64,000 nt of DNA, taken from contig WHVA01000057.1 of the NCBI GenBank assembly GCA_015179125.1, positions 248,001-312,000 of the forward strand. Reading direction: 5' to 3'. The notes beneath the pieces were generated by a model. The model saw only the letters and a list, made by a program, of their open reading frames with translations, did not search any database and was not told the origin of the DNA. The stretch's first letter is position 1. Every line of letters begins with the position of its first letter. A program made the translations under genes and the position numbers. Below, piece after piece: positions 24,240-35,027 of the stretch. The stretch is from Gautieria morchelliformis (Eukaryota > Basidiomycota > Agaricomycetes > Gomphales > Gomphaceae).

Positions 24240-25199
24240 CAAGTCTTACAGAATGGGACCCCACTCTTGACACAGGACAGCTATATACCTCACAGTCTCC
24301 CAAATAAGCCGGCCGAAGTTAGAGTACACCACGTAAATAAAGCACCATAAACAGTTCAGAAGTTGCAACGAAGCCATCCCGACTGCGTACATAAGTGAGA
24401 GGAATGGTGGGAGCTGTGCTCGTGCACCGTTGAGGGTGATCAGGAATCAATAGGAGTACGGTACAAGGGGAATCAGATATCGGAACGAGACGACCAAAAA
24501 TTATGCGACATATGGTCAAGTATTTCAGAAAGCACTCACCAATGAATATTTAGCCACGGCGTGCTTCTGCATACAAGGAATAAGGGTGTGGGAAGTAAAC
24601 AAGAACTTCAAAATGTCAGGACGACACCAGCTGGCACTGATATACCTACAGTGATGTTAAAACCAGTACCACACCAGATACAGCGCCAGACCAACCATGA
24701 AGCGCAAGGCCGATATCCTGGAAATGTATCACAGCAGCCTCTTCCACGGAGTGCAATAGAAAACCAGAATGGTAGCCATGAGGCCACCAGAAGAATAAAT
24801 TATGGCCGAAAGGGGATATCAACACTTGCTAGCTACGCGGCACTAACATCAGATGAACGAACCATGCTCCTAGCCTCATTCCGTTACAAGACCGGCCGCA
24901 CGCAAATGATAACTATGTACAACCGTCGACGCGTCAGAGCTATCGGAGTGAGAGGCGTCGTGAGCGCAAGGGGATCGAGCAGGGCAGAAGCAGCAGCCTT
25001 CAGCTTGTTGTCGGTCGTCGCCCAGCCATGCGCTTGGCGCTCGCGACGGAGAGGAGAGGTAAAAAGTACCGTAGCTACCCCGTGGCACCCATTCGAACAT
25101 CGAACAGGACCAAGTGCTGGCGGCGCGTCGAGGTCCCCAACGTAGCGCCGGGTTATCGACAACACGGGTACCGACAGGGCGGCGCCGCGACTCCGACCT
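24240..25199. other. No recognised gene; locally CpG-rich
   Basis: A plus-strand frame of 194 codons (24,561-25,145) and overlapping minus-strand frames exist. The section 24,880-25,180 is unusually rich in CG dinucleotides compared with its surroundings. I recognise no domain on either strand. Confidence 0.35.
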
Positions 25200-25671
25200 C
25201 ACCATGCTGTGCTTTGAATGTACCCGTTTAGTAGCGTGTTCCGGAATCTATTATACCATGCCTGTTTGAGTCCATAGAGCGCGCGGCGTAATTTTAGGAC
25301 TGGACCCGATCCATCGTTGAAGCCTTCGGGCTGTTTCATAGATTTCTTCTTCCGGTTCCGAATTGAGGTATGCCCCTATTACGTCCATCATCTCGACCTC
25401 ACAGTCGAGTGTATTGGCCATTGCCAATAATAGTCGTAAAGAATCGAATTTCACAACTGGTGAAGTGATGTCATAGTAGTCCATACCTGGCCTTTGCGTG
25501 GACCCTTGAGCTACCACTCTGGCTTTCCCTCTGTCAAATTCTCCGCCCGGTTTACCGCAAAGACCCATCGGCATCCAATTACGGCAATTATATTAGCTCC
25601 CAGGTACCGATTTCCTGCTGTTGAGCTATTTCTGTCCTAATCGCTCGATTGATGGCCTGTCATAGTGATGA
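25200..25671 (-). mobile_element. Ty1/copia fossil, reverse transcriptase part (left of Helitron)
   Basis: The minus strand reads as the start of a copia reverse transcriptase: GTWEL, then KARVVAQGSTQRPGMDYYD, SPVVKFDSLRLLLAMANTLD, MMDVIGAYLNSE and YGLKQAWYNRF in successive pieces. It is an old, broken fragment interrupted in several places. The Helitron inserted at 25,671/25,672 separates it from a related stretch beyond 32,422. Confidence 0.8.
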
Positions 25672-25702
25672 CTAGCCAATAGACCCGTGCTTCGCACCGG
25701 GT
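25672..25702 (-). repeat. Helitron 3' terminus: hairpin and CTAG
   Basis: The minus strand reads CCCGGTGC-GAA-GCACGGG, a stem with one bulged G, then TCTATTGG and the terminal CTAG followed by host T. This is the CTRR end with subterminal hairpin that acts as Helitron transfer terminator. Confidence 0.85.
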
Positions 25703-25799
25703 TATTTAGGGTTAACATTGCACATGGGTAGTTAATAGAATCAAAGAATTATTTGGTGAAATGCAACTACATACATTAAATACAAATGGAAATACATAT

Positions 25800-28700
25800 T
25801 TAATCAGGCTTCAGCAACACTTCTTTGTATACAATATTAGAAGTTTTGTTCCCCTCCCCTAAAAGAATATGGACTCTGTTCCAATTAGTGCCCCTTGACA
25901 CTGCAACATACAACTGTCCATGTGAAAATACCACGTATCGCAAGTCTATGCCTACCGTGCCAAGAGACTGCCCTTGAGACTTGTTGATAGTCATGGCAAA
26001 GGCCAGCCTGACAGGAAACTGGCGACGCTGGAGCTCAAATGGCAATTGGTCTGAGGTGGGTGTCACTGTCATCCTAGGGATAAATGCAGTCTCTCCTGCA
26101 AATGGTCCAGAAATGATCCTCACAAAGAGTACCCTGTTGGTCATATTGATGAGACGCAACCTTGTACCATTGCAGAGTCCACGACCAAGGTCAATATTCC
26201 GAAGAAGCATGAGTACCACTCCAGGTTTAAGCCTGAGTTGAGATGGAGGAAGCCCACCCATGTTGAGTGAGTTAAGATACTCCACAGGATACACATTGCC
26301 ATCTTCATTTCCTTTGACCGAGTCCGCACTGGGATAGAGACGCTCATCCCCAGGGAATACATTGAGCACCTCAGCATTAATCTCATCCATTTCCATATTG
26401 CGAGGGCAAAGGATGGCACGTTCCAAAAAGTATTTGTCTTGGAGTGCCTCCCCAGTACCAATGTTAGGATAGATAGCTGCAATGAGATCTGACACCTGTG
26501 GTCCACAGATCATGTGCTGAGGAAGTGTGAATGAATTGTCCAAAGGGAGATCCTTTCCCTGACCAACGTCAGAGAGCCACTGAGCAAATTGTTCACTCTG
26601 GGGATCATGAGGGTCGACCCGCATATTTTGAGTAAGATGGAGGACCTTGACATGATGCCACAAAGGGGATCTTTGGATCGAAGCACCCACGATCTCCTCC
26701 TTGTTACCTCGAGGAACAACAGGCAGAGTTTGCTGGAAATCTCCACCCCAAGCCACAGTAATACCACCGAATGGACGATCTGGACGCTCTAGGACATCCC
26801 TGCAGGTTCTGTCGACAGCTTCAACTACATGACGATGCTGCATAGGCACCTCATCCCATATGATCAAATGGACCTGCTTGAGAAGTTCTGCCAGTGGTGA
26901 GCCTCTTTTGATGTCACATAGAGAACCCTCATGAATCAGAATTGGTATCTTGAGCATAGCATGTGATGTTCTGCCCCCAATCAGAAGCAATGCTGCAATT
27001 CCTGAAGATGCAATGCATAGGACAATAAGGCCCCTTCCTCTGATAGAATGAGCCAGGGTATTCCAGGTAAAGGTTTTGCCTGTACCACCGGGGCCATTGA
27101 CAAAGAACAGAAGACCCTCTCCATTTATGGCTGAATGGAGGATCTCATCATGGACACGCCTCTGTTCTGCATTAAGCTTGTCAATATTGGTGGCAGCTTT
27201 TTCCAGCTCTGTAGCTGGGTCATAGTCCCGCTGCTCAGCTATCCAACGGTTCCCTACCAATCCCTCCCAGTGCCCCATTATCTGTGGCATATCTGGGAAC
27301 TCATCCAGAGACTTCCCCCCCTGACGTATGATCTTGTCAATGAGAAAGAGACCAAAGTCATAGATTTGATCATTGGTAGGATGGTGAATGCCATGCCTAT
27401 TTTGAAGCTGATGCTCCAGGTCATCACAAATACACTCCCGAAACTCCTCCCATATTTGAGCAGGCTGAGCAGGGTTACACCGAAGGAGAATAGTGACAAA
27501 TAACCTCCTGAGCTGGAAACCTGTTTGTATATGTGCAGCCTCCTGAAGACACTGTGTCCACTCCGAATCATCTTCTAAGAGGCCCCTTGCCAGGCATGCA
27601 GCCTTGTAAGTAGGACAAATGACACCATCAAATGATCTAAGCTCCTCAAATGACATTGCTCCTCTGACAACTGTAAGGAGGGTTCGCAAGTAAAAGCACT
27701 CTCCAGAGGCTGGACTTGCAAAATGAAGGCGACCGAGACTGAAACCCTGCTGGCGAGGTTTCCACCGCTTGGGTGACTTCTCCCAGACATAGTGCTCAGG
27801 AAATTCCACATAGAGCCATTCACATGCCTCAGGATATCTGTGATTGGCTTCAAAATAGGCCATGAGCATGGTCTTAGCACCATCTGCCCTTTGCAAAACC
27901 ATGCCTGGATCCATATGAGGATCAAATATCACATTGTGCTGGCCTGGCAAATGGACTGGAAGTGCCATAACAGCAGGGACCTGAACATGCATTTTATATT
28001 CCAGCAGTCTCCAAGCACCTTCATGTGAGCTGACATAGCGTGCATCGAGGTACTGTTTAACCTCATCCCTCTCCTTATTAATGGCCATTGTGGTCCTGTC
28101 GGGCCCCTTGTACATATACTTGTGAATGTACTTGATAGAGCGCACATTGAAAGTGGGTTCCACATTAATATGGCATTCAAATTCCAAGAGGAGGGTGGGA
28201 CAATAGGGAACCACGTCGCGGTTGTCCATGATGTTGCCTCTGACATTATGCTGTCTGCCATCATTAGGACGGCGATACTGTGGATAGCCATCTTCAGTGA
28301 CAGATGTCACCTCACGAAATTCCTTTGGGAAATGTTTAGAACACTTGCCCTCTGTCATGCAAGAAGCCCGAGGACGCGCTTGTCCACAGGGGCCATGAGT
28401 CATTAGATCACAAACTAATTTGTAGAGCCTTGGATGCTCTTGCTGATCAGGAAAGACAGCCCAAACCAAAGCATCCACAGCTTCCGGTGTCCTGATCTTA
28501 TCCTCCTCTTTAAACCATATAAGAAGGTGCATATGAGGGAGCCCCCGCTTCTGGAATTCGATCACATGGACACGTGCGACTGCGCGACCAAGGATACCAT
28601 CCTTCATGATACGTTTGATCAATTGCTCCTTCTTGAGATGAAAAACCCTTGCAACCAAGTCAGGACGATCACTGGGAGTCTGGCCTGGCTTGAGAGCATC

Positions 28701-30623
28701 TTTGATTTCCTTCCACTGGGGGTTTGCTGTCATTGTCACAAAGATATCTGCTGGACCATGCTTCCTAGTGATCGCCATTGAATTTTGAAAATTCTCATTC
28801 ATATCCCTGGCGCTCCCAGTAAATGTAGCAGGCAAGATGACCTTTTTTCCCAAGTTAGCTGGATTGGGCTGATTGTCCTCAGGTCCAAATGTATCAATCA
28901 TCTGATTGTAGACCTCAGCCCGCAGCTCATGTTGATGGTATTTGATCCAATTTAGCTTCTGCTGTTCAGTCGCTGCCCAAGCATCCACAATGTATTGCTG
29001 AAAGAGCTTGCCAGCCAGGAAGAGAGTTTCAGCTTCACCCTCCCTCGGAAAAAGACGATAACGATAGTATTTTGACATGGTCACACGCCTGTCACTTGAA
29101 GGGTCCTCCCCCTCCCCCTCCTCCTCCTGGCCTTGTTGTGGAAGAGCTTGGCCTATCCGTGGAATGTCCCAATCCCAGCCTGATTCACCTCTGGGAAAGA
29201 GAAGGACATAGTGTAGTGGTGCATACAATGCATGCTCAGCCTGAATTCGTTGCAGTTCTCCACCTCTAAGCTGAATGACAATGTCTCTAGTGCCTCCAGG
29301 CACACCTTCTCCAGGGAGCACAATGGCAATCTCATCCGCTGTAGGAATATTATATCTTCTCTGGTCTGTATGTGCTCTGTAGGTGAGTCTGGCCTCCACA
29401 GTCAACCTATCTGGCTGGTTCCTAAGCCTTTCCATCGCCTGCTGATAGATGGGAACCAATGGATTGTGAGCCTGCATCATTTCCTGGAGGTCACTTAAAA
29501 CATCTGAATCCAAAGGATCAAATCTGTTATTGACCTCCCTACGCCGCAAAGCCTCTGCTGGATCATAAAAGTAGAGCTGCGCATAGCTGGGTTTCCTATC
29601 CTGACCCTCAGCAGGAAGAAGAGCGCCATGAATATGATAGAGGCCTCCCTGAATTTTGAAGACATATGGCCCAGGTCTATTCACGACCTTGTGATCTATG
29701 TTCACTCCCACAGAGACAAATGCCAGTGCAGCATTATAGTTCCGAATCTTTTCCCTAAACTGTTTGCCACGCCTGTCTTGGCTGGCCAAAAGAGTCTTTA
29801 ATGGTTCTGGAGGTTCCATCAACAATTCAAGGTGTATCTGGCCCTTTGAACAACATATACCAAATTTGGGCTCGGCAATAGTAGACTTGGTCAGACGCTC
29901 TGCCTTCCAATGCCATGCTTTACATTTTGGGCATTTGTTATCCATAGCACCAAGGTCATGAGGTGCAATCTGTTGTTCAATCAAAGGGCGACGTGCTAGT
30001 GGAAGGTTTCTTAAAGGCATTGGTGGAGGCAGTGGAAGTGGAGGGGGCTGAGGAGGAGCAGGTGGATGCAGAGGCTGTGGAGGCACAGGGGGCCCTGGAG
30101 GCAGAGGCACCGGTTGTTGTGGTGCAGGCTGCTGCTGGAGTGGCCTTTGATCTGGGAGAGGTTCAGGGTGTCGTGCACGCCGTCGTCCCTGTCTCTGTTG
30201 TGCCAGAGGTCTAGGATTGATATTAGCAGCCTGGGCCCGCAACGCAGCTACCGCTGCAGAGCCTACAGGGACAGGAGGAGGAGGTGCTATCTGGGCATTA
30301 GCAGCCTGGGCCTGCAATGCCGCTACTGCTGCAGAGCCTACAGGAACAGGTGGCGGTGCTAACAGGGGATGTCTCTGACGCACAGGTGCCAGAGGCATAT
30401 CAGCTAACTGTTCCTGTATGGCACGTACAGCATCCCGAGGACTTAGATCAGGTGGAATGGCATTTGAAGGTCCAGCCACAGGAGGCCAAGGAATTGCATT
30501 GTTCTGAGGGAGTAGAGGTCGAGGAAATGGCTGAGGAGGTGGAGGGTCAGGATTTCGAAGACGTTCTTGAGCTGCAGCGAGAGCCCTATCCCGACGACGC
30601 ACAGAAGGGGACGTCATTGGCAA
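25800..30623 (-). CDS. Helitron Rep/helicase protein (1607 codons from first Met)
   Basis: This protein nicks and replicates the Helitron by rolling-circle transfer. Domains in order: Pro-rich segment about residues 30-215 with a duplicated VPVGSAAVAALQAQAAN motif; Cys-rich finger CPKCKAWHW..CC about 231-260; Helitron-like N domain from about 500; HUH nuclease motif GLPHMHLLIWF with HMH near 697-699; Tyr motif KYIHKYMYKG near 831-838, giving the two-tyrosine arrangement. The Pif1-type SF1 helicase follows, with Walker A GPGGTGKT near 1173-1180, Walker B LIIWDEVP near 1250-1256, TINKSQGQSLG near 1550 and HGQLYVAVSRG near 1567. It ends in a TAA-side stop at 25,800. The frame remains open about 75 bases upstream of the first Met (EPSTPERDRQEERALERQQR) to a possible 3' splice site near 30,690, so the native N terminus probably lies in an upstream exon. 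No stop or frameshift was seen. It appears functional. Confidence 0.93.
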   Translation of the reverse strand: MPMTSPSVRRRDRALAAAQERLRNPDPPPPQPFPRPLLPQNNAIPWPPVAGPSNAIPPDLSPRDAVRAIQEQLADMPLAPVRQRHPLLAPPPVPVGSAAVAALQAQAANAQIAPPPPVPVGSAAVAALRAQAANINPRPLAQQRQGRRRARHPEPLPDQRPLQQQPAPQQPVPLPPGPPVPPQPLHPPAPPQPPPLPLPPPMPLRNLPLARRPLIEQQIAPHDLGAMDNKCPKCKAWHWKAERLTKSTIAEPKFGICCSKGQIHLELLMEPPEPLKTLLASQDRRGKQFREKIRNYNAALAFVSVGVNIDHKVVNRPGPYVFKIQGGLYHIHGALLPAEGQDRKPSYAQLYFYDPAEALRRREVNNRFDPLDSDVLSDLQEMMQAHNPLVPIYQQAMERLRNQPDRLTVEARLTYRAHTDQRRYNIPTADEIAIVLPGEGVPGGTRDIVIQLRGGELQRIQAEHALYAPLHYVLLFPRGESGWDWDIPRIGQALPQQGQEEEGEGEDPSSDRRVTMSKYYRYRLFPREGEAETLFLAGKLFQQYIVDAWAATEQQKLNWIKYHQHELRAEVYNQMIDTFGPEDNQPNPANLGKKVILPATFTGSARDMNENFQNSMAITRKHGPADIFVTMTANPQWKEIKDALKPGQTPSDRPDLVARVFHLKKEQLIKRIMKDGILGRAVARVHVIEFQKRGLPHMHLLIWFKEEDKIRTPEAVDALVWAVFPDQQEHPRLYKLVCDLMTHGPCGQARPRASCMTEGKCSKHFPKEFREVTSVTEDGYPQYRRPNDGRQHNVRGNIMDNRDVVPYCPTLLLEFECHINVEPTFNVRSIKYIHKYMYKGPDRTTMAINKERDEVKQYLDARYVSSHEGAWRLLEYKMHVQVPAVMALPVHLPGQHNVIFDPHMDPGMVLQRADGAKTMLMAYFEANHRYPEACEWLYVEFPEHYVWEKSPKRWKPRQQGFSLGRLHFASPASGECFYLRTLLTVVRGAMSFEELRSFDGVICPTYKAACLARGLLEDDSEWTQCLQEAAHIQTGFQLRRLFVTILLRCNPAQPAQIWEEFRECICDDLEHQLQNRHGIHHPTNDQIYDFGLFLIDKIIRQGGKSLDEFPDMPQIMGHWEGLVGNRWIAEQRDYDPATELEKAATNIDKLNAEQRRVHDEILHSAINGEGLLFFVNGPGGTGKTFTWNTLAHSIRGRGLIVLCIASSGIAALLLIGGRTSHAMLKIPILIHEGSLCDIKRGSPLAELLKQVHLIIWDEVPMQHRHVVEAVDRTCRDVLERPDRPFGGITVAWGGDFQQTLPVVPRGNKEEIVGASIQRSPLWHHVKVLHLTQNMRVDPHDPQSEQFAQWLSDVGQGKDLPLDNSFTLPQHMICGPQVSDLIAAIYPNIGTGEALQDKYFLERAILCPRNMEMDEINAEVLNVFPGDERLYPSADSVKGNEDGNVYPVEYLNSLNMGGLPPSQLRLKPGVVLMLLRNIDLGRGLCNGTRLRLINMTNRVLFVRIISGPFAGETAFIPRMTVTPTSDQLPFELQRRQFPVRLAFAMTINKSQGQSLGTVGIDLRYVVFSHGQLYVAVSRGTNWNRVHILLGEGNKTSNIVYKEVLLKPD

Positions 30624-30780
30624 CCGCTGCTGACGCTCCAGAGCACGCTCCTCCTGCCTATCACGCTCTGGTGTAGAGGGCTCCCTTGAATTACAGTCAG
30701 TTTCAAATCAAGCCAAAATATATATATATAAAGGATACTCACATTTTCACAATGACTGTAGCTCACGACCAACAATAGGG

Positions 30781-31126
30781 GATACCAGGGAGGCAGTCAA
30801 TGTCCACCTAAACCGTCTAAACCCAATGTGTGCCACCAAACCAATCCCAGTTCACAGACCACACTGGCTAACAGAGTTATAACTCTGGCCGGAATCAAAC
30901 TGCAATGCAAGCTCCCAGTGCACAATCCAACCAACCGACCACCCATCCAAACAAATCCACCACAGATACCAGTGAGGTGGTCAATCCGCCTAAATCCAAT
31001 GTGCACCACCAAACCAATCCTAGTCCACAGACCACACTGGAGTTGTAACTCTGGCCAGAATCAAACTGCAATGCAAGCTTCCAGTGCACAATCCAACCAA
31101 CCAACCACCTCAATCACTCTAGGCAG
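30781..31126. repeat. 184-bp tandem repeat, two copies, in Helitron
   Basis: GATACCAG(G/T)GAGG begins units at 30,781 and 30,965. Both continue with matching blocks (CCACCAAACCAATCC, CACAGACCACACTGG, ATCAAACTGCAATGCAAGCT, CCAGTGCACAATCCAACCAA). Similarity is roughly 85-90 percent by eye. It lies just upstream of the helicase gene. Confidence 0.85.
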
Positions 31127-31299
31127 GACAGAGAGATTAGCACGGCACAAAGCCCAGCAAAAACCAAGGAGGGAAACTAATGGCCAAGTCAACATTAGCT
31201 TGAAAATACAACATACAAATGGCAAAACCATACTGAATAGCTGGGACCGAAAGAAATAGCAAACTGATCAGTTAAGGTCAAACCCAAAATTGGTGCCAA

Positions 31300-32180
31300 A
31301 AAGGAAAATTGCTATGAGAATAGGAACATACCTAAGTAAGCTTGAAAAAAAGCCAAATAAACTTTAAAAAGCAAAATCAAAAGAGAAAAAACATACCCAA
31401 GGCACTGCAGAGCTGTTGGCATGAGTAAACCACCCAAAAAAGCGAAAATAAGGGCAGGATGCTCACCAGAATGCAGACAGACACCCACAGGTAGAGTGAA
31501 GAGGAGGTGAGAGGTGTAATCTGGCCCGAAAAGGGGGGAAAATGGGGCAAAAAAGCGAAAATTAACACAGAAAAGGGAAATTGCTCTGAGCATGAAATCA
31601 TACCTAAGAGATATGAGGCTGAGAGGGTAGATCTGGCATAAGATAGGCCAAAATAAGCCTTAAAAAGCGAAAATAAAAGAGAAAAACATACCCAAGGCAC
31701 TGCAGAGCTGTTGGCATGAGCAAACCACCCAAAAAAGCGAAAATAAGGGCAGGATGCTCACCAGAATGCAGACAGACACCCACAGGTAGAGTGAAGAGGA
31801 GGTGAGAGGTGTAATCTGGCCCGAAAAGGGGGGAAAATGGGGCAAAAAAGCGAAAATTAACACAGAAAAGGGAAATTGCTCTGAGCATGAAATCATACCT
31901 AAGAGATATGAGGCTGAGAGGGTAGATCTGGCATAAGATAGGCCAAAATAAGCCTTAAAAAGCGAAAATAAAAGAGAAAAACATACCCAAGGCACTGCAG
32001 AGCTGTTGGCATGAGCAAACCATCCAAAAAAGCGAAAATTGGGCCAGGATGCTCACCAGAATGCAGGGAGACACCCACAGGTAGAGTGAAGAGGAGGTGA
32101 GAGGTGTAATCTGGCTTAAAAAGGGGCCAAAAATGAGCTAAAAAAGCGAAAATTAAATGAGAGACACACCAGTGAATTAA
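31300..32180. repeat. 295-bp tandem repeat, about three copies, in Helitron
   Basis: A 295-bp unit is repeated with near identity between the first two copies and more divergence in the third: identical frames end at 31,593 and 31,888, with a variant ending at 32,192. On the minus strand each unit contains GT-type candidate donor sites (CTTAGGTATGA, TTGGGTATGT, TCTGGTGAGC), so the array could behave as leader sequence with repeated splice signals upstream of the helicase. Confidence 0.85.
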
Positions 32181-32422
32181 AAGCTTCTGCATGCCTCATC
32201 AGGGTCAGTCAATTGATCCAGGAGGTGAGAACATACTTGAGACAGAAATAGATGTGAAAGAAGCACGCTGGGAGGACGGTGGGAGGATGATGGCAGAGGG
32301 AGAGAACGCGCGTCGTGCGCAGCATCTTAGTCAGTATGCGTGGTCTGTTTGCGTCTTAGTCAGGATTACGTAAAACGCAGGCACCCCCACAACCACCCGC
32401 GCACCCATCTTTATACTATTGA

Positions 32423-33556: not shown

Positions 33557-35027
33557 ATGAGCTTCAAAACTCTCCTCGCTTTCATCGGTATCTCCGTGGC
33601 ATCTGTCCAAGCCGCAACCCTTGGCAAGAGGGGCGTGACCTGTCCTGATGGCTCTACGACCTCCAACGAGGCGTGCTGCGCATTCTTCCCTCTTCTCGAG
33701 GACCTCCAAACGAACCTGTGAGCAGCCCCATAGGGTAACCGTTTTTTGTAGTCACTCGCTGACCATGCTCAAGGTTTGGCGGCAACTGTGGTGAGGATGT
33801 CCACGAGACACTGCGTATTAGCTTCCGTGAGCTCCAATCCCAAGCACCAATCTGCCTTGACTGATCAGTTTCATTAAAGACGACGCCATTGCGTTCTCGA
33901 AGTCTCTAGGACCGTCAGCCGGTGGAGGTGCTGATGGGTCCATGCTCATCTTCCCCAACGTCGAGCCCAACTTCGTGGCGAACGCTGGTATCAGTGACAG
34001 TGTTGCTTTCCTGACCCCCTTCCTCCAAAGGCACAACACCATCAGTGCTGGTGACTTAATCCAGTTTGGTGCTGCCGCCGCCATCACCAACTGCCCGGGT
34101 GCACCCCAACTTGAGTTCTTGGCCGGACGTCCCAATGCCACTGCCCCTGCCATCGACGGACTGATTCCCGAGCCCCAAGACTCCGTCGACAGTATCTTCG
34201 CCCGCATGGAAGATGGCGGAAACTTCTCCCCCCCTGAGGTCGTTGCCTTGCTGACATCCCACACCATCGCGCGTTCGGACCACGTCGTCCCTAGTTCACA
34301 ACAGGTTCCCTTTGACACCACGCCCTTCACTTTCGACTCCCAGATCTTCGTCGAGGTGCTTCTCAAGGGAACCGGATTCCCCGGAAACGGCTCCGCTGAC
34401 GATGTCGGCCTCGGTATGATTCACCTCTGTAGACGTCTATTGACGCTAATGTATTCTACCCCAGGCGAGGTGGAGTCCCCCCTCCCACTGGGGTCTGGTG
34501 CCGACGTTGGCGAACTCCGTTTGCAGTCAGACTTCGCCATCGCTCGTGGTAAGTGTGTCTCAAGTGCTAAGTGACCCTGACAAACCTGTTCCCAAAGATT
34601 CTAGGACCGCATGCACGTGGCAAGGCTTCGTCAACGAGCAGGAGAAGATGGCCGGCGCCTTCAAGACTGCCATGGCTAAGCTGGCTATCATTGGCCAGGA
34701 CCGATCCCAACTCATCGACTGCTCTGACGTCATTCCCCAACCCGTCCCTGCGACGGGCAAGCCTGCCACGTGAGTAATCATCTTTCCTATAGAGGATCCG
34801 AGTTGATCGCGTCGCCCGTGTGTAGATTCCCTGCCACAAAAACAATCGCCGACATTGACCAGTCATGTGCCGAATCTCCCTTCCCGAGTCTTGCCACCGA
34901 TCCCGGTGCGACACAGTCCCTGATCCCGTACGTGGCCGTCTATAGCCTGTCATAAAGTACACACACTGACCATGCGGATTGCAGTAACTGCCCGAACGAT
35001 GCGTCGACCTGTATCATTTTGGCATAG
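33557..35027 (+). CDS. mnp: Manganese peroxidase, secreted, class II, complete 7-exon gene
   Basis: A haem peroxidase that oxidises Mn(II) to Mn(III) with H2O2 to attack lignin outside the cell. Exons: 33557-33717, 33774-33826, 33880-34413, 34465-34548, 34598-34769, 34826-34927, 34985-35027; 382 codons in total, all introns GT..AG. The signal peptide [19 protein letters not shown] is followed by a short propeptide ending KR before GVTCPDG. The distal His (SFH|DAIAFS) spans the exon 2/3 junction. The Mn(II) ligands are present: both Glu in [10 protein letters not shown] and Asp in SHTIARSD, which also holds the proximal His. The position of the catalytic surface Trp of lignin and versatile peroxidases is Ala (EVVALLTSH), so this is a manganese peroxidase. 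The C-terminal CPNDASTC pair fits the extra disulfide of long or classic MnPs, although the tail after it is short (IILA). It is intact and host-like in GC content. Confidence 0.95.

Follow-up and report, generated by a model that had tools for sequence, protein, structure and literature searches.

The window analysed here is a 64,000-nucleotide stretch of Gautieria morchelliformis DNA (contig WHVA01000057.1, positions 248,001 to 312,000). A first-pass annotation described its positions 25672-32422 as an apparently intact and recently or still active Helitron. This locus raises two questions: whether it holds a complete Helitron of a recently mobile family, and how Helitrons in this genome come to stand head to tail with one another. 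With respect to the first, we are highly confident that the element belongs to a large family that was recently amplified, and that it is autonomous and of the canonical (Helitron1) type. The evidence consists of both termini, an A|T target, an undamaged gene, near-identical copies, non-autonomous elements sharing its 3' end and an empty site. All genome searches covered 122 Mb in 1113 contigs.

Termini and limits of the element

The element is carried on the minus strand, beginning with TCAATAGTATAAAG at 32422 and finishing with CTAG at 25672. The features discussed below are as follows.

25150..25671 (-): target on the left side, probable remnant of a decayed Copia-like reverse transcriptase (C441 is a continuous paralogue)
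25671 (+): target base on the 3' side, A on the plus strand, equivalent to T after CTAG (flank reading, empty-site comparison)
25672..32422 (-): the complete 6751-bp Helitron, autonomous and of subfamily A (two termini, flanking A|T, the 99.96% copy L021, empty site)
25672..25703 (-): 3' terminus with the hairpin (25684-25701) and final CTAG (116 exact occurrences genome-wide; none of the reversed pattern)
25800..30623 (-): RepHel transposase frame, 1607 codons to TAA (domains, motifs, Helraiser match)
30685..30742 (-): probable 58-nt intron (borders kept in 10/10 copies, length of the middle variable)
31355..32156 (-): leader tandem repeat, 295 bp x 2.7 (computed from the sequence)
32387..32394 (-): GGTTGTGG core, found at 5' ends in several families of Helitrons here (possible Rep binding site)
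32393..32422 (-): 5' terminus, TCAATAGTATAAAG... (exact 30-mer in five places in the genome)
32423 (+): target base on the 5' side, T on the plus strand, equivalent to A before TC (flank reading, empty-site comparison)

The TC start, hairpin-CTAG end and A|T flanks noticed in the first-pass annotation are all present in the sequence, as is the repeat-bearing leader. The 5' TC and 3' CTRR ends, which are common to other copies, are those of canonical Helitrons (Helitron1). The 3' subterminal hairpin of such elements is present as CCCGGTGCGAAGCACGGG, which stops 12 nt short of the 3' end, although its free energy is not significant when compared to shuffled sequences. Folding the terminal 60 nt gives the expected stem (-7.3 kcal/mol), but because 19/200 shuffles fold equally well (z -1.3), the fold alone is weak evidence for a hairpin. 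A search of the window with up to three mismatches allowed gave a single occurrence each for the 32-nt 3' end and for the 30-nt 5' end, and none in shuffles. The 5' end of the wider clan, TCWATAGTATAAAG, was found in 222 places in the genome (reversed-pattern control: 1). The GGTTGTGG core near the 5' terminus is a possible binding site for Rep.

The end points given by the first-pass annotation are exact to the base: the copy L021 has the same ends and lies between unrelated flanks that start at the same two bases. In the window family, CTAG is followed by T in 64/64 flanks read, a count that omits L001, L003 and L012 (repeat loci) and L014 (duplicate flank) and for which L004, with one change in the 32-mer, was unmatched. 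TC is preceded by A in all 27 non-junction 5' ends read (a single duplicated flank accounts for two of them), and by G at Helitron junctions. The window copy itself lies outside any array, with host sequence on both sides. The 60-bp insertion flank of L014 (C52) recurs in L101 (C424), the first contig being short and the second longer; this is probably a case of an allelic or duplicate contig.

An empty site was identified within the same genome, which bears out the comparison suggested in the first-pass annotation. The joined flanks (170 + 170 bases) match a paralogue, a diverged Copia-like relative in C441, at 73% overall with gaps elsewhere. At the insertion point, C441 runs through without a gap or additional base and is exact over AGTGATGA|TTTCATTGCTGACTAATGC. 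Because C441 is continuous across this point, the insertion was exact and no target duplication was produced, as is the case for canonical (Helitron1) insertions into A|T. Matches at C981 (three) and C167 are weaker; as whole matches, rather than base by base, they too extend across the insertion point. Judging by its motifs, the stretch at 25150-25671 is probably what is left of a Copia-like reverse transcriptase.

The transposase gene and its start codon

The long frame was reported as an uninterrupted Rep/helicase protein of 1607 codons, a count that starts at a mechanical TTG. It is indeed open, and it matches PF05970 (PIF1, 7e-75), PF14214 (Helitron_like_N, 3e-61) and PF21530 (Pif1 2B domain), while residues 205-1578 match the Helraiser transposase (7lcc, E 1.1e-266). 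The frame contains HMH at residues 697-699, two tyrosines in IHKYMYKG (833-840) and a GPGGTGKT Walker A motif, and all of the helicase motifs searched for were found. As in canonical Helitrons (Helitron1), Rep (HUH, two Tyr) and a PIF1-like helicase are thereby combined in a single protein. Helentrons carry an endonuclease domain; no such domain is among the six Pfam families matched at E-values up to 0.001, again in keeping with Helitron1.

The start codon of this gene is probably split by a 58-nt intron, giving a predicted protein of approximately 1628 aa. In 10/10 copies from three subfamilies (the window, L021, L027, L009, L013, L017, L010, L019, L020 and L028), AT|GTGAGTATCC and a 3' AG are retained around a middle of variable length. 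When the borders are joined, AT (30743-30744) and G (30684) form an ATG in frame with the long ORF. Without splicing, an ATG is immediately followed by TGA, and another in-frame TGA is found a short way upstream. Because the joined borders give an in-frame ATG and there is an in-frame TGA upstream, the leader exon probably supplies just two bases of the start codon. The earlier proposal of a native N terminus in an upstream exon therefore stands in part: the leader exon would contribute AT, while an upstream coding exon would be unneeded.

Copies, subfamilies and age

The five places with the exact 5' 30-mer (C137, C460, C637 (the window), C817 and C837) have ends that are 6.73-6.75 kb apart, with one change in the 3' 32-mer of C837. 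L021 (C137) aligns to the window element over all 6751 bp at 99.96% with one gap. Further copies with both termini, which were to be looked for according to the first-pass annotation, are thus present within the genome. Among matches to the 3'-terminal 601 bp, the best 40 of 761 candidates are all 99-100% identical. As 40 of 761 candidates were scored for the 3' end and 29 of 4544 in the protein search, the copy counts are lower bounds.

Twenty 3'-end copies were retrieved, 17 of them as full 10-kb stretches (two overlapping); C90 and C285, at contig starts, were left out of the copies examined. These copies include members of subfamily A (L021 and L027), subfamily A' (L009, L013 and the second element of L012) and subfamily B, which has a different leader (L010, L017, L019, L020, L025 and L028). 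Non-autonomous elements of approximately 3.6 kb (L011, L012, L018, L022 and L026) have only the last 250-290 bp in common with the window element, at 73-74%. Further retrieved copies fall outside these four sets. Among the subfamilies, the sequence of the 5' leader differs and the position of the end is constant.

Full-length or nearly full-length uninterrupted frames were found in 10 of the 29 places scored (of 4544) in the protein search: C637, C460 and C837; C572; C174, C251, C529, C592 and C208; and C226, from residue 21. For the window frame, dN/dS was 0.33-0.45 in comparisons with eight A' and B copies; ratios against L021 (0.30) and L027 (0.42) each rest on very few changes. In the codon-level comparison with the window frame, each of the ten copies has at least one frameshifting gap (in L021, one base is missing), and L027 has a 434-bp insertion. 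Given these ratios and frameshifts, selection for function has acted on the lineage, while the individual copies read are decaying. The frameshifts in all ten relatives could also suggest that the window element is already a fossil and owes its open frame to chance, but the ten long open frames, the dN/dS ratios of 0.33-0.45 and the near-identical copies make this most improbable. On these sequence comparisons, the window Helitron is young and multicopy and was probably mobile in the recent past, and the claim of recent activity is backed, as a recent burst, by the near-identical copies.

If the element follows the Helraiser model, Rep would nick at A|TC and the helicase would strip off one strand as far as the hairpin and CTAG. 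A TC-CTAG circle would then arise and would be joined into another A|T without target duplication. The transposase would probably be made from a spliced message, with intron removal assembling its start codon. As a reference for its young family, the element is complete and sound. In itself it is an ordinary Helitron of an already known kind; the pattern of arrays described below is more interesting.

Flanks of single insertions

The 3' flanks are AT-rich at positions 2-14 (0.66-0.79, compared to 0.46-0.55 at A|T sites of the window). TATAWA occurs within the first 20 nt of 14/62 single-insertion 3' flanks (shuffles: mean 3.2, maximum 10), hinting at landing directly upstream of promoter-like sequence. 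One flank comparison merged six similar flanks (62 to 56). We do not claim that ordinary 3' flanks mimic the element's own end, because their match to TCWATAGTATAAAG is weak beyond composition (shuffles P 0.033; other offsets equal or better). An open frame at 33942-34574 (+), approximately 1.5 kb from the element, resembles part of a class II (ligninolytic) peroxidase, which would suggest a wood- or litter-decaying basidiomycete host.

Head-to-tail arrays

In 119 of the 222 places in which TCWATAGTATAAAG occurs, the four bases before it are CTAG. The first 47 listed of these 119 junctions were read. The upstream partner is a member of a second family (D) in 42, of the element's own family in four and, as judged by eye, of a third family in one. 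Since three families serve as upstream partners, partner-specific recognition is unneeded. Family D ends with CCACCTAG and is abundant (CGGGTAYCCACCTAG has 1072 exact occurrences in the genome); the D elements upstream of L020 and L028 have sequence that is 65-68% identical to the RepHel gene of the window. In the window family, 5/64 3' flanks are junctions of this kind.

When the D copy of L028 was used as a query, the best 40 of 1668 candidates (itself included) were 99-100% identical over 1 kb. The 3' flanks of these 40 uniform copies were read, and all begin with T. Twenty-eight abut a Helitron 5' end exactly, with six types of 5' end represented (8, 8, 7, 3, 1 and 1). Three more (L129, L132 and L161) lie in, or at most six bases from, such an end. 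The remaining nine are elsewhere, including L162, which by eye is in an apparent RepHel gene. Of the 28 abutting neighbours, 24 are less than 98% identical to any other neighbour, as compared within this sample. The GGTTGTGG core lies within 70 nt in 26/40 of the D flanks and in 39/47 of the junction 5' ends, compared to 22/9184 A|T sites of the window. The figures for the 40 copies come from one D subfamily, and the types of 5' end were defined after the sequences were seen.

Several related observations were made. At C140:6382-22533 and C25:66378-74657, D 3' ends occur in runs on one strand with a spacing of 2-4 kb; these are probably long head-to-tail Helitron arrays, and part of that in C140 was read in L023. 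In L124 (C186:108962-109032), a clan 5' end follows a small array of TCTATAGTA units. These resemble the first nine bases of that end and may be the trace of events that recurred there. In L130, L131, L139, L152, L160 and others, D-type 5' ends begin with TT, not TC, and retain the GGTTGTGG core.

Order of insertion

Which member of a head-to-tail pair arrived second? We consider it likely that the newcomer goes in between the host A and the T with which the 5' end of the resident begins; this A|T is the nick site of the resident, and arrays would thus extend in the 5' direction. This reading is preferred over insertion behind CTAG because of the flanks of the D copies and of L161 and L129. 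First, 28/40 uniform D copies are found exactly before 5' ends, and these are of six types. Second, the residents are diverse (24/28 neighbours below 98%) while the D copies are uniform. Third, D appears to lie within a resident 5' end in two cases. In L161, the sequence behind the D 3' end, as read on the 3' side of D, continues TAGTATAAAGTTGC, and D seems to sit inside the resident end at TCTA|TAG. L129 looks like D in reverse orientation inside another resident 5' end, at base 15/16. Fourth, insertion of this kind keeps A before TC, as in 27/27 non-junction ends. Other observations count against this order: type B makes up 33/47 of the junction 5' ends but 4/27 of the non-junction ends, though its first 16 bases are those of another type, and such insertions are rare in the window family itself (5/64 flanks). 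The supporting figures must also be read with the post hoc naming of types, the comparison of neighbours within the sample and the single D subfamily in mind.

Alternatively, the newcomer could enter behind the CTAG of the resident, at G|T, with arrays extending in the 3' direction; we regard this as rather unlikely. It would accord with the unrelated upstream partners in 5/7 pairs whose downstream elements are at least 99% identical, and with the partner ratio of 42:4, which approximates that of the 3'-end counts (1072:116, from patterns of different length). The ages at L020 point the same way, and thus against 5'-end insertion: its upstream D is relatively old, reaching no more than 98% identity to any scored copy, while the B element next to it matches that of L019 at 99.5-99.7%. 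This order, however, requires a G|T target, which is absent among the 27 non-junction 5' ends read, and requires that several diverse families were recently active after one uniform D subfamily had spread. L161 and L129 also point in the opposite direction. Age order from nearest relatives alone was rejected as a guide, as the results are mixed: L020 suggests insertion behind CTAG, L019 is undecided and L028 fits the other order.

That head-to-tail pairs are rolling-circle concatemers, or composite elements moving as one unit, is very improbable: L030 and L063 are alike in both halves (99.5-99.7%; one of the two, on a contig of 14 kb, may be an allele), but upstream and downstream families differ in 43/47 junctions. 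Of the seven pairs that are nearly identical downstream, six are unrelated or diverged (95%) upstream, and of the six pairs that are at least 97% identical upstream, five are different downstream or reach no more than 96% identity there. Based on this pairwise comparison of junction halves, composite transposition was rejected as the general cause.

Returning to insertion at resident 5' ends, we lean towards a broader interpretation in which transposases in this genome prefer the 5' ends of resident elements, from families sharing GGTTGTGG, as landing sites and reuse the A|T of the nick. The arrays would then result from independent leftward insertions and not from rolling-circle read-through, and Helitrons would be the main targets of Helitrons.

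Comparison with known Helitrons

Like Helraiser of bats (PDB 7lcc; PMC5876387), the window element has Rep and a PIF1-type helicase with two catalytic tyrosines in one protein, a 5' TC, a hairpin and CTAG at the 3' end and an A|T target. It differs from Helraiser (PMC5876387) in its inferred split start codon, its tandem-repeat leader and the array-dense genome in which it is found. HELPO1 and HELPO2 of Pleurotus ostreatus (PMC4289320) are likewise fungal Helitrons with autonomous and non-autonomous members, RepHel (approximately 1400 aa), AT-rich flanks and young copies. In that survey, 37 elements were validated in one strain, compared to 116 exact 3' ends here, and the word "tandem" is absent from its main text (PMC4289320). 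Recent A|T insertions and circles are described in wheat (PMC13286980).

Head-to-tail or tandem Helitrons are already known from maize, bat, rice and Drosophila (PMC2267711; PMC5876387; PMC5148889). The maize case (Du 2008, PMC2267711) has the same CTAG|TC junction of two different elements, and both insertion orders were proposed for it. It is a single case (PMC2267711), whereas here 119/222 clan 5' ends follow CTAG and 28/40 copies of one D subfamily abut a 5' end. FoHeli of Fusarium oxysporum (PMC5148889) is similar in having multiple 5' termini, and self-insertion at or near 5' ends has been considered for it; unlike the window family, it has non-canonical (Helitron2-like) ends, and single cases are involved (PMC5148889). 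For preferential insertion at Helitron 5' ends, no report was found in the literature searched, which was screened by title and the start of the abstract and lay mostly outside subscription journals.

The array pattern makes the origin of head-to-tail Helitrons answerable by strain comparison, as it offers dozens of junctions and a clear prediction of order. It suggests that the 5' initiation site of a Helitron also serves as a target. If true, this would explain how Helitron-dense islands and satellite-like arrays begin.
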